Assembly: GCF_024808815.1 (NCBI RefSeq)
Contig: NZ_JANUCS010000014.1
Location: 1-57,773, forward strand
DNA: 57,773 nt
Source: Methanosalsum natronophilum
GTDB lineage: Archaea > Halobacteriota > Methanosarcinia > Methanosarcinales > Methanosarcinaceae
Direction of reading: 5' to 3'
This document shows positions 17,987-22,300 of the stretch, in pieces. The translations under genes and the position numbers were made by a program. Within the stretch, counting starts at the first letter, position 1. Every line of letters begins with the position of its first letter. Below the pieces are notes generated by a model. That model was not told the DNA's origin, made no database searches, and saw nothing but the letters and a program-made list of their open reading frames with translations.

Positions 17987-19093
17987 CTAATAGATATCTG
18001 CAATATCACCTTTTCTGCTACTATTAATCAATAATAATAACAAAACTATTGCAATAAGAGTATAGAGCAATAGCCAATATATAGATTCAATTAAAGGTAT
18101 ACTATCCAGTGCTAGGCGTGTTATCATGTTCAGTGGAGAGTTCACATAGAGATATGATATCATTACCATCAGGATAAGAATAAATGAATAAAACATTTGA
18201 GCTATCCCTCTTTCCTTAACTAATAGAGATATTGATCCGCCTATTGTTACAAGTATAGTTGCTATTAAACTGACCAGTACCAAAATTGATAAAAAATTAT
18301 TAATCTCAATTCCATTCAAAACAAGTAGAATCATCCAAGCTAATGATTGTATTGGAACAATGAAGACTGCAACTAGCACTTTCCCACTAATAATATCCAA
18401 TAGCGAGACAGGAGATACTAATAAAAGACCTACTGTCTTTTTTTCAAACTCTTCGGTAATAAAATCAATAACTAAACCTCCTGAAATGAATGCCGGAGTT
18501 AATAGTAAGAGTGGTAATAGTGCAACATAAATAAATTCAAGATTAATTATAGTTGTACCATCTTTAGGACTCTCAATATCCAAATCTAGTGGAGCATAAC
18601 CTGGAAGACGCTGAGTCCTAACTTCCCTGACAACCTCCTCAAACTGTTCTAAAGGTTCTTTTAGGTTGATAGAGACAAGAGTTGCACTAAGCTCTGAACG
18701 AGACATGTACACATTGATATCTATCAAATCTTCACCATCAGCTTGTTCATAGGGAATCTCAATAATAGCATCAATTTCTCGTGTATAAAAATCAATATAA
18801 GCTTCACTGAAATCTTCGTAGTATGTTACTTCGATATCAGAATTTACTAAAATATCATAAAATTCACTTTCTTCATTCCCAAAAACACCTACCTGCGGAG
18901 ATTGCATTTCAAAGTCTTGTAAAGCACCCGGGTCATAGAATGTAGTTAACCCAAATATTAAAAAAACTGAAAAAGTTGCAATGAAAAGTTGAATAAATAC
19001 TGTTAACAAGAACGTTTTTTCGGACAGCAATCCTTTAGATTCTTTTTTTGATATTGCCAATACTTTACGGCCCGGCCATAGCTTATCCAACAA
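17987..19093 (-). CDS. ABC-2 type permease (NatB-like)
   Basis: 368 aa integral membrane protein: one N-terminal membrane segment (about 30-50), a large extracytoplasmic domain (55-185) and five C-terminal segments. This is the ABC-2/NatB layout of exporters. The start is one of two tandem TTG codons (19093 or 19090) behind GGGGGA. It overlaps the end of the upstream permease-PrsW gene by 11 bp, so the two are co-translated. With the divergent ATPase at 21027 it forms a heteromeric ABC exporter of unknown substrate. Confidence 0.85.
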   Translation of the reverse strand: MLDKLWPGRKVLAISKKESKGLLSEKTFLLTVFIQLFIATFSVFLIFGLTTFYDPGALQDFEMQSPQVGVFGNEESEFYDILVNSDIEVTYYEDFSEAYIDFYTREIDAIIEIPYEQADGEDLIDINVYMSRSELSATLVSINLKEPLEQFEEVVREVRTQRLPGYAPLDLDIESPKDGTTIINLEFIYVALLPLLLLTPAFISGGLVIDFITEEFEKKTVGLLLVSPVSLLDIISGKVLVAVFIVPIQSLAWMILLVLNGIEINNFLSILVLVSLIATILVTIGGSISLLVKERGIAQMFYSFILILMVMISYLYVNSPLNMITRLALDSIPLIESIYWLLLYTLIAIVLLLLLINSSRKGDIADIY

Positions 19094-20918
19094 GAATCCC
19101 CCTTAGTAAATAAATATTATAGAAAGAATGAACAAAAGTAGCAGCTAAAAGCAAAACCAAGTAATACCTATGACCCAAATAGTATAGCCCAATACCTACA
19201 ATCGCTGTAGCTGATACATGAAGCATTAATGGGAGTAAGAGTAAAGGACCCATACTCATAACAAAACCGAATAATGAAGATTCAATTGGTGTCAATGTTA
19301 TCACAGAAATAAGTTTTTCGCCTACAAAAAATCCTGTACCTGCCAATATAGAGAGTAAAGTGGCCTTCTTTAAGTTGATATGTTCCAATTTCTTTTTTAT
19401 TATAGTTAAAATTCCAATCGATTTTGCAAGTTCTTCAACGAATGCAGACAAGAATATCATTATAAGTATTGAGTAGGGTAATGGTAAGTTGAATAGAATT
19501 ATTATAAACATTAACTGTAACATGTATATGAAAGGAATTGACACTAAACTAAGAGTAAAAACGGAGCCTCCTGGGAATTCCAAGAATTTTTCGATAGAAT
19601 CGAGTGATTTTGATATGAGGTTTTTCTGGCTAAACAGATTCTCTTCGTTGAATATAGATGTACCTAATCCATATAGACTCAAGCTCACCAGATAAAAAGG
19701 AACAGTTGAAAACAGATAAGTATTAACATCAATTTGATTTCCTTCAACCAAGTTCACTATTAGAGTCATTGGTGATATTGCACTGACTGCATGTATATTA
19801 GCAAACATTGCTGGGAAAAACAAGTAGCCTGAAACGATTACTGATAAGAAGACCATACTAAATGTCAATTCTTTAAAGCTTCTTGAAAATATTGCTGCAA
19901 TAAATGATAATGCCATAAATAGGAGTATCACAGGCAACATTATCAGGGCCATTGAGAATACTGTCGTTACTTCTCTTATTGTACTAGGCTGTTGAATAAA
20001 GGTTGATATAATTATTACAAGTAGCATTAGTGTAATAATGTAGGGTGCTGTTTTTCCTAAGACTATATCTATAGACCTTAAAGGAGCTGCAAGTAAAAGC
20101 TGACATTTTCTGTTAGTCCTTTCTTCCATCATACTAGATGAATATAATTGTGCAATAATATATATTGGGAAAATAAACAAGAAAGAATATAATATAGCCA
20201 TAAAAGGTATTGGTGGTGAAAAATGGGAGGGTGTAGAAATCGTCTGTGTTTGGAACAGAGTAATTGTAGCCTGTTGATCCATCTCGAAACGTTCACTTGG
20301 GTGCACAAAATGCTCATCTTTTTCCGACACATCTTCAGGAGATACATCAGAGTCCTTTCCAGCTTCAATATCATTCTCAGTGTCTTGTTGAGCCTCAGTG
20401 TCTTGTTGAGCCTCAGTGTCTTGTCGAGTATCAGTATCCATACTCCTGACATCACCTAAGAGTTCGAAACTTTCAGGCCTATCTATATCATGAACAATAA
20501 CCCATACAGGATGACTGTCAGGTATAGATTTATAAGATGATAAAATAGTTTCACGATAGTTTATTAACGCATTTTCCAGTGCTTTACCGGCAGCTGCAGA
20601 TTTTTCAGTACCCGATAAATAAGCACGGTCGTTGATTATTATAATATCATATTTTGTGTCTTGGCCAAGAAGTTTCCATGGCTCATTCGCATATTCCACG
20701 TTAAACCGTGGGTCATTAGATATAATATCATTAAGTTCGGGTTGTGAAGAGGCTACAGAATAAATTTTTTGGTTTAAGCCAAATCCAGCCATAGAGGCAG
20801 CGTATGTGACCACGAATATGAGAACAAGAGCAAGAAGTAATAGACTTACAGTCTTCCGATCAAACTTAGTGAGTGATCGTTTAAGTTCCCATTTGGAAAT
20901 AATACTCCAGGCTGGCAT
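19083..20918 (-). CDS. ABC-2 permease fused to a PrsW-type intramembrane protease
   Basis: 611 aa from the ATG at 20918. Residues 1-440 form an ABC-2 permease: N-terminal membrane helix, a large external loop with an acidic, Gln/Thr-rich repeat near 163-190, then about six helices. Residues 450-612 form a second membrane domain with all four PrsW motifs: EELAK (about 496-500), FFVGE (531-535), HVSAT (568-572) and HSFYN (598-602). PrsW is a membrane-embedded protease (known for anti-sigma factor cleavage in Bacillus). The fusion suggests export and cleavage of the same substrate, or cleavage of the transporter itself; this is inference. Confidence 0.85.
   Translation of the reverse strand: MPAWSIISKWELKRSLTKFDRKTVSLLLLALVLIFVVTYAASMAGFGLNQKIYSVASSQPELNDIISNDPRFNVEYANEPWKLLGQDTKYDIIIINDRAYLSGTEKSAAAGKALENALINYRETILSSYKSIPDSHPVWVIVHDIDRPESFELLGDVRSMDTDTRQDTEAQQDTEAQQDTENDIEAGKDSDVSPEDVSEKDEHFVHPSERFEMDQQATITLFQTQTISTPSHFSPPIPFMAILYSFLFIFPIYIIAQLYSSSMMEERTNRKCQLLLAAPLRSIDIVLGKTAPYIITLMLLVIIISTFIQQPSTIREVTTVFSMALIMLPVILLFMALSFIAAIFSRSFKELTFSMVFLSVIVSGYLFFPAMFANIHAVSAISPMTLIVNLVEGNQIDVNTYLFSTVPFYLVSLSLYGLGTSIFNEENLFSQKNLISKSLDSIEKFLEFPGGSVFTLSLVSIPFIYMLQLMFIIILFNLPLPYSILIMIFLSAFVEELAKSIGILTIIKKKLEHINLKKATLLSILAGTGFFVGEKLISVITLTPIESSLFGFVMSMGPLLLLPLMLHVSATAIVGIGLYYLGHRYYLVLLLAATFVHSFYNIYLLRGILVG
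20376..20429. repeat. 18-bp tandem repeat inside the permease-PrsW gene
   Basis: Two exact copies of an 18-bp unit (20376-20393, 20394-20411) are followed by a third copy with two changes (20412-20429). They encode repeats of a six-residue DTEAQQ unit in the external loop. Being a multiple of three, copy-number change would keep the frame. Confidence 0.9.
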
Positions 20919-20991
20919 CAAAGTGTGTATGATGTCATCAGATTAAAAACTAATTATTATAGCAAACTCGAGTTCTAAATAGTATAAATAA

Positions 20992-21000
20992 TTATATATA
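20992..21000 (+). promoter_or_regulatory. TATA box of the ABC ATPase gene
   Basis: TTATATATA is centred about 30 bp before the ATG at 21027. With normal archaeal spacing the transcript would begin at or within a few bases of the ATG. No ribosome binding site precedes the ATG, which fits a leaderless message. Confidence 0.5.
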
Positions 21001-21026
21001 TTATACTAATCCCTATTTCTTAGACT

Positions 21027-21926
21027 ATGATAGAAGTGAATGATTTACAGAAGTTCTATGAAGACTTTAGTGCAGTTAGTTCTTTGACGTTTAACGTTTA
21101 TCCTGGTGAGATCTTTGGTATCATCGGACCAAACGGTGCAGGTAAAAGTACAACATTAAAAATGTTGATTGGGTTAATCAAACCAACTTCTGGCACTATT
21201 AAAATAAATGGACTTGGCCTTTCCAGCAATATGGTGGAAATTAAATCAATACTCGGGTTCTTACCAGAAGATTCGACTTTATACGAAAATATGGAAGTTG
21301 AAGAATATTTACTCTTTTTTTCAGAGCTGTATGGTCTGGATAAAAAGGATGCAAATGAGAGAATATTCAGACTACTCACAGATCTTTCATTAAATCCCTA
21401 TAGCAAAAAGATAGGTGATCTTTCCAAAGGAATGAAACGCAAAGTTGCAATTGCAAGGTCGCTAATTAATGAGCCAGATATACTTGTCTATGACGAGCCG
21501 GGGTCTGGTCTTGACCCTATGACATCTAATTTTATCACAGAATATATTGGACAATTGAAAAATGAAGGTAAAACTATAGTGTTCAGTGCTCATAACCTCT
21601 ACCAAATGGATAAACTCTGTGACAGAATCCTTATAATTAAAGATGGTAAGCAAAAAGCACTTGGTTCACCTGGAGAAATAAAAAAACAGTATTCTAATAC
21701 ATCTTATAGGCTCGAGTTCGTATTAGATAATAATAAAGATGCTGAAATTCAACTGAAGCAAGAAAATATCTTTTGGCGTGATGACAGGTACGTATTATTA
21801 ACAGAAAACATTGAAACTGTAAACAGCGTCACAAAGAAAATAATAACAAGTGGTGGAAAAATCCTTGAAATGAGTACAGTGGAGCCTACATTAGAAGACA
21901 TTTTTTTGAGGATTGTGAGTTCTTGA
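21027..21926 (+). CDS. ABC transporter ATP-binding protein
   Basis: 299 aa. Walker A GPNGAGKST (near residue 35), the family signature DLSKGMKRK in the ABC loop position (near 134), Walker B DILVYDEPGSG (near 150) and the H-loop SAHNL are intact. It has a C-terminal extension of about 80 residues typical of NatA/CcmA-type exporters. It is transcribed divergently from the two permease genes, sharing a 108-bp promoter region, and should power them. Confidence 0.93.
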   Translation: MIEVNDLQKFYEDFSAVSSLTFNVYPGEIFGIIGPNGAGKSTTLKMLIGLIKPTSGTIKINGLGLSSNMVEIKSILGFLPEDSTLYENMEVEEYLLFFSELYGLDKKDANERIFRLLTDLSLNPYSKKIGDLSKGMKRKVAIARSLINEPDILVYDEPGSGLDPMTSNFITEYIGQLKNEGKTIVFSAHNLYQMDKLCDRILIIKDGKQKALGSPGEIKKQYSNTSYRLEFVLDNNKDAEIQLKQENIFWRDDRYVLLTENIETVNSVTKKIITSGGKILEMSTVEPTLEDIFLRIVSS

Positions 21927-22182
21927 ATTTATGCATATTCCTTTATAATAATATTTCAGTAAAAGTATAATATCTATACATGATCCTCAAAATTTCCAAT
22001 TGTAAAAATCTGTCCTAAATAGGATTTTACTTTATGAATTTCAAATTCAAAATAAGGTTATTAATTTTGTTTTCATTTGCATCATGGTTATATAAGCTCA
22101 TATTAAATAATTGTTCACAAAAATATTACACGCTGCACTTAGCATGGTGAAAATTTTTACAGTATTGAACTTAAGAATGAGA

Positions 22183-22257
22183 TGCTCCGATCGGGATTCG
22201 AACCCGAGTCTTCGGCTCGAAAGGCCGGAATGATTGGCCTGACTACACTATCGGAGC
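22183..22257 (-). tRNA. tRNA-Glu (anticodon UUC)
   Basis: Complete cloverleaf of 75 nt with discriminator A; CCA is not encoded. The acceptor stem GCTCCGA/TCGGAGC is perfect. The anticodon loop CTTTCGA gives UUC. The T arm carries GGTTCGAATCC. No intron. The outermost pair of the anticodon stem (27-43) is C-A here, a mismatch. Confidence 0.97.
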
Positions 22258-22300
22258 ACGTTTTTACCTTTTCTAACAAGGCAGCACCACTATGTAATTT

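Follow-up and report, generated by a model that had tools for sequence, protein, structure and literature searches.

The window analyzed here, a 57,773-nucleotide contig of Methanosalsum natronophilum, encodes a polypeptide that joins an ABC-2 permease to a PrsW-type intramembrane protease domain at its C terminus, and this fusion is conserved together with a second ABC-2 permease (P2) and an ABC ATPase as a three-gene unit (Table 1). The fusion is of ancient origin and a standard component, and the conservation of its catalytic residues makes it highly probable that the exporter possesses a catalytically active built-in protease. The initial annotation of this region had envisaged an export machine that contains its own membrane protease, a proposal that is now strongly supported by the joint conservation of the trio and the invariance of the catalytic residues. 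The anatomy of the module is solid, and its substrate is something that we infer.

Table 1. Features of the three-gene module, in window coordinates
Feature	Position	Strand	Basis
Second ABC-2 permease (P2)	17987..19093	(-)	PF12698 63.9 bits; adjoining in 87/87 relatives
ABC-2 permease with C-terminal PrsW-type intramembrane protease domain (fusion gene)	19083..20918	(-)	ORF; PF12698 and PF13367 above cut-off on isolated parts; relatives
PrsW domain, residues 440-612	19083..19604	(-)	PF13367 37 bits; invariant residues 87/87; hydropathy
ABC-2 permease half, large acidic extracytoplasmic loop at ~residues 42-240	19605..20918	(-)	PF12698 40.7 bits; averaged hydropathy
18-bp tandem repeat, 2.9 copies, encoding a DTEAQQ repeat in the external loop	20376..20428	(-)	Sequence
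AT-rich divergent intergenic region, 105 bp	20922..21026	.	Sequence; inference
DrrA/NatA-type ABC ATPase, divergent	21027..21926	(+)	ABC_tran 105.7 bits; DrrA1-3_C 43.7 bits

The two halves of the fusion protein, which meet near residue 445, are each recognizable when scanned alone, the N-terminal part matching ABC2_membrane_3 (PF12698; cut-off 31.6) and the C-terminal part matching PrsW-protease (PF13367; E=3.4e-9, gathering cut-off 23.5). A search of the whole 2.03 Mb genome returned the fusion gene (36.6 bits) as its single PF13367 match. When the unsplit protein is scanned, a weak ABC-2 match stands alone and PrsW is absent from the Pfam listing; the PrsW half is easily overlooked. In databases, the protease half has mostly gone unnoticed and members are annotated as permeases, as exemplified by the fusion carried on a plasmid of Haladaptatus salinisoli, for which the public annotation is only "ABC transporter permease subunit". 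Searches of the PDB revealed no significant relative for either the fusion protein or P2. The protein has 611 aa when read from the ATG, although a TTG start lies immediately 5' of it and translation could begin at this TTG at 20921 (ORF 19083-20921(-)); residue positions are given in the 612-aa numbering that counts the TTG.

Averaged hydropathy and loop charges predict an inside N terminus and 11 membrane segments, six of them in the permease part and approximately five in the PrsW domain, together with a cytoplasmic linker at about residues 418-450. The same averaged hydropathy gives the permease part one acidic external loop of ~200 residues, in keeping with the initial view of the N-terminal part as an exporter permease having a large external loop. 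The external loop is poorly conserved, and the tandem repeat within it lengthens an acidic DTEAQQ stretch. In this hydropathy-based reading, EE496/497, E535, H568 and H598 would each sit near the cytoplasmic end of the helix that carries it; single-sequence AlphaFold models were poor (pLDDT 60 and 42).

The motifs that define PrsW (EExxK, FxxxE, His and HxxxN/D; PMC4602095) are all found in the window domain, as E496-E497-x-x-K500, F531xxxE535, H568 and H598xxxN602, confirming the earlier observation that four PrsW motifs are intact in the C-terminal membrane domain. Among 87 aligned relatives, E496, E497, K500, E535, K536, H568 and H598 are identical in every one, and position 602 carries N in 83 of them and D in the other 4. 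Relatives of the Methanofastidiosum type, which belong to another phylum, have the motif set in 7/7 proteins read. Such invariance across 87 relatives is not attributable to chance, and catalytic decay was found in none of the 94 sequences (87 plus the seven of Methanofastidiosum type). Loss of catalytic residues in relatives, a prospect raised by the initial annotation, is therefore not what is observed. Homologues devoid of the protease do exist, in one derived lineage only, the Methanobacteriales. Fused PrsW domains often score under the Pfam threshold and several members have no Pfam match at all; the PF13367 score is 24.2 bits for the fusion of L061 and 66.3 bits for that of L206, and a Pfam scan gave no PF13367 match for those of L050, L086 and L072. 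Many genomes encode stand-alone PrsW besides the fusion, and since the stand-alone proteins score far higher with PF13367, the fused PrsW appears to be a divergent branch.

Equally conserved is the genetic setting of the fusion. In each of the 87 fusion genomes, the gene that immediately follows the fusion on its strand is P2, with overlapping ORFs in 77, and in the window the two genes share 11 bp, the start of P2 lying inside the end of the fusion gene. The ATPase gene is linked in 81/87 loci, being divergent in 68 and upstream in the same direction in 13; the other six comprise three loci that are cut short and three that have no nearby ATPase. At L049, L060 and L093, the fusion and P2 are present and a linked ATPase gene was not found, so these permeases must either share an ATPase or use one whose gene lies at another site. 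In the window, both promoters presumably lie within the AT-rich gap that separates the divergent genes. The second permease and ATPase that the initial annotation had placed next door are thus conserved companions of the fusion, and permease domains with a partner ATPase in conserved linkage are what is expected of an ABC-2 exporter. The ATPase and the two unlike ABC-2 permeases constitute a conserved exporter, for which export activity is predicted.

When examining the distribution of the fusion, it is evident that its carriers account for roughly half, or more, of the phylum genomes sampled. Matches occur in 148/295 phylum genomes and in 142/235 of the high-quality ones, which answers the earlier suggestion to look for the same domain pair in homologues; nearly all of the matches are full-length fusions and a few are weak or partial. 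A second sample of the same phylum yielded ~97/197 strong matches in a profile search, by our own count, and at lower ranks the fusion is matched in 78/238 genomes of the class and 68/150 of the order. Judging from gene content, the carrier groups look like Methanosarcinales, including ANME relatives, as well as Methanomicrobiales, Methanocellales, haloarchaea and Archaeoglobi. Elsewhere, the phylum of Candidatus Methanofastidiosum encodes the fusion in 8/115 genomes and the Methanobrevibacter phylum in 0/150, with ~20 of the latter having the permeases without PrsW. A chance fusion or assembly artefact is ruled out by the identical architecture in >140 genomes, and the two halves were not seen as separate genes in relatives except as contig-edge fragments. 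Presence at the tips is patchy. The module is absent from a second complete genome of the same genus and from many Methanosarcinaceae, and it is therefore dispensable rather than essential; in the same-genus genome, synteny ends right after a DUF89 gene and no clean empty site is readable.

In phylogenetic trees, 36 fused PrsW domains separate from 21 archaeal stand-alone PrsW with support of 100/98. After the addition of five plasmid-borne stand-alone PrsW (four bacterial and one haloarchaeal) and the removal of the three longest branches, the fused domains still formed one group (90/81), with archaeal and bacterial stand-alone PrsW as the sole comparison. By these trees, the fused PrsW domains are one clade, distinct from stand-alone PrsW. 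One genome in which the fusion was not found has, at L056:5944-6756(+), a gene for a stand-alone PrsW that ends in a zinc ribbon. In the permease tree, the N part of the fusion groups with permease A of the Methanobacteriales and P2 with their permease B (99/95), and on each side Methanofastidiosum is sister to the Methanobacteriales (94/89 and 100/96). The simplest history suggested by these groupings is that an exporter with two unlike permeases already had its PrsW domain in the common ancestor and later lost it in the Methanobacteriales.

The Methanobacteriales are informative in another respect as well. PrsW was not found anywhere in the genomes of exporter-bearing Methanobacteriales (0/20). 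At loci L214-L224, the best M50 protease of the genome is encoded two genes from the ATPase in 11/11 cases, divergent to it and with a moeA-like gene in between, and wherever this protease was scanned, it has a PDZ domain of the RseP/RasP type; an example is the M50-PDZ gene at L214:1487-2656(-). This linkage may be a single inherited arrangement, and for this reason it is a hint rather than a test.

Signal peptidases and intramembrane proteases leave hydrophobic peptides behind in the membrane, and the way in which cells get rid of them has yet to be settled. With a probability that we would place a little short of even, the trio is one housekeeping "cut-and-extrude" machine that clips and exports membrane peptides. 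The PrsW domain would cut hydrophobic membrane peptides or membrane-protein stubs inside the bilayer on its cytoplasmic side, with signal-peptide or lipoprotein-leader remnants as candidate substrates, and the attached exporter would use ATP to drive the fragments outward. The fusion could pass the product of proteolysis directly to the pump, and the membrane would be cleared of fragments, with peptides perhaps being released. As the module is not accompanied by a precursor gene, its substrates would be diverse membrane peptides and not one precursor, and we tentatively lean towards general membrane-peptide clearance over one dedicated cargo, though somewhat short of an even chance as well. 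A broader scenario strikes us as rather doubtful, namely that an ancient archaeal machine couples intramembrane proteolysis and ATP-driven extraction in one complex, that it predates the split of the window phylum from Methanofastidiosum and Methanobacteriales, that a separate M50 took over the cutting in the PrsW-less lineage, and that this general system for disposal and release of membrane peptides has been overlooked since its members are annotated only as permeases.

Counting against a cut-and-extrude machine are the dispensability of the module and the fact that the Methanobacteriales keep the exporter without PrsW. The latter observation also favors the likeliest of the alternatives, in which the module would export ions, drugs or lipids in the manner of NatAB/DrrAB and PrsW would serve in quality control or self-processing of the transporter or the envelope. 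Such an exporter would also accord with the top score of the ATPase, which is with the DrrA family, and with the ABC2_membrane types of the permeases. However, we consider it unlikely, as all catalytic residues are kept with the fusion in two phyla, which suggests that cutting is central, and as the distribution, apparently spanning thermophiles, halophiles and mesophiles, does not track salinity.

The flanking genes of the module bear on the next alternative, which we likewise regard as unlikely and place second: a maturation exporter for a dedicated peptide, similar to SagE with SagGHI, in which PrsW would cleave off a leader and the pump would then carry the product out. This would make sense of the physical joining of protease and exporter, and P2 has a faint likeness to SagH (NF038293). 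That likeness amounts to 21 bits, far under the cut-off of 450, and a search of the flanks of relatives found no linked cargo peptide and no conserved peptide or precursor gene accompanying the module, such that a cargo gene would need to sit elsewhere. Beyond the trio, no gene family is broadly common across the families of the phylum within ~5 kb; flanking genes vary from family to family, and four occurrences are the most that any Pfam family reaches among 90 of them. Conservation of small ORFs near the module is restricted to close relatives, and these ORFs look like shadow frames of neighboring genes. The initial annotation had proposed the maturation of an exported peptide and advised a search for small peptide genes near homologues; none was found to be conserved, which speaks against a single dedicated export peptide and leaves the proposal unsupported. 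A point in favor of a maturation exporter comes from Methanolobus-like genomes, where a gene for a secreted BatD/DUF11-type protein follows P2 by ~11 bp, possibly within an operon (L050:8931-10766(+), L053:8871-10679(+) and L054:8868-10661(+)). Some loci have a gene for an MscS-type mechanosensitive channel between the ATPase and the fusion (L050:5055-5948(-) and L055:5114-5929(-)). Neither a DUF11-type nor an MscS gene adjoins the window module, which instead has a tRNA-Glu (TTC) gene beside it at 22181-22258(-), where small ORFs running across the tRNA are spurious.

A third alternative, improbable and ranked behind both of the former, casts the module as a sensor, with the exporter reporting its load or blockage and PrsW making a site-1-type cut in a membrane-anchored regulator, as PrsW does with RsiW in B. 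subtilis. Its appeal lies in the founding PrsW being the site-1 protease of regulated intramembrane proteolysis (PMC3498285) and in the stand-alone PrsW joined to signalling domains that are recorded in the PrsW section of a domain-architecture survey (PMC3482391). The release of a signal upon exporter blockage, also put forward in the initial annotation, nonetheless finds no backing in the neighborhood of the module, where no conserved regulator-like gene adjoins and MarR-type regulators account for 4/90 flanking genes. Furthermore, Archaea are not known to have ECF sigma/anti-sigma pairs, which likewise counts against a sensor of this kind. Lastly, the domain might be a structural subunit that has lost protease function, like APH-1 of gamma-secretase, a member of the same superfamily (PMC4602095), and its divergence from stand-alone PrsW would fit, but catalytic positions invariant in 87/87 and motifs kept in 7/7 are unexpected in a pseudo-enzyme and make this very improbable.

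With respect to systems already described, a search of the open-access literature found no paper on an ABC permease-PrsW fusion. Where two reviews of archaeal membrane proteases mention PrsW (HVO_0408 of Haloferax volcanii), they describe no ABC-permease fusion, and the PrsW section of the aforementioned survey lists fusions to toxins and signalling domains and none to an ABC permease (PMC3482391). The nearest counterpart in architecture is NF041647 (NCBIfam, ABC permease subunit/CPBP intramembrane protease), which, judged by its name and its length of 636 positions, likewise joins an ABC-2-type permease to a protease of the same wider superfamily. Its profile (cut-off 435 bits) has no match to the fusion protein, its permease part is matched by P2 of the window at 33.3 bits, and its protease is a CPBP with EExxxR, whereas the window fusion has PrsW with EExxK and an extra His. 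The window fusion probably arose independently and is a parallel case, not a member of this family. In the streptolysin S locus, the CPBP protease SagE is encoded beside the ABC-2 exporter SagGHI. There, the proteins are separate and a dedicated cargo gene is included in the operon, whereas the window module has no cargo gene.

PrsW of B. subtilis (MEROPS M82, PF13367) has the four motifs and the membrane-embedded catalytic core in common with the fused domain, but it is a stand-alone site-1 protease of RsiW, whereas the fused domains fall into a separate group and give weak scores. The two-permease exporter of the Methanobacteriales has an orthologous permease pair and a linked ATPase, as in the window, but it lacks the PrsW domain, of which its genomes encode none, and has an M50-PDZ protease gene nearby. 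In function, the closest parallel is provided by EcsAB/PptAB and RasP/Eep of the Firmicutes, in which an ABC transporter is functionally tied to an intramembrane protease and both peptide export and membrane cleaning have been proposed (PMC7157817, PMC2996298). EcsAB influences proteolysis by RasP, and a role in "cleaning" the membrane of peptides has been proposed for it (PMC2996298). Processing and export of lipoprotein-leader peptides in S. aureus require Eep as well as EcsAB (PMC7157817). The cut-and-extrude role is one that these transporters and their separate proteases have been proposed to share. They consist of separate genes, a different permease family and an M50 zinc protease, and the EcsB family is not among the Pfam matches of either window permease, both of which are of ABC2_membrane types. 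The likeness to EcsAB is one of function, not of descent, and in the window it is the fusion alone that suggests coupling. No mechanism has been agreed on for the connection of ABC transport with intramembrane proteolysis that EcsAB and RasP exemplify, and a single polypeptide that joins the two, with all catalytic residues kept across much of the Euryarchaeota, makes this connection directly testable in genetically tractable haloarchaea.
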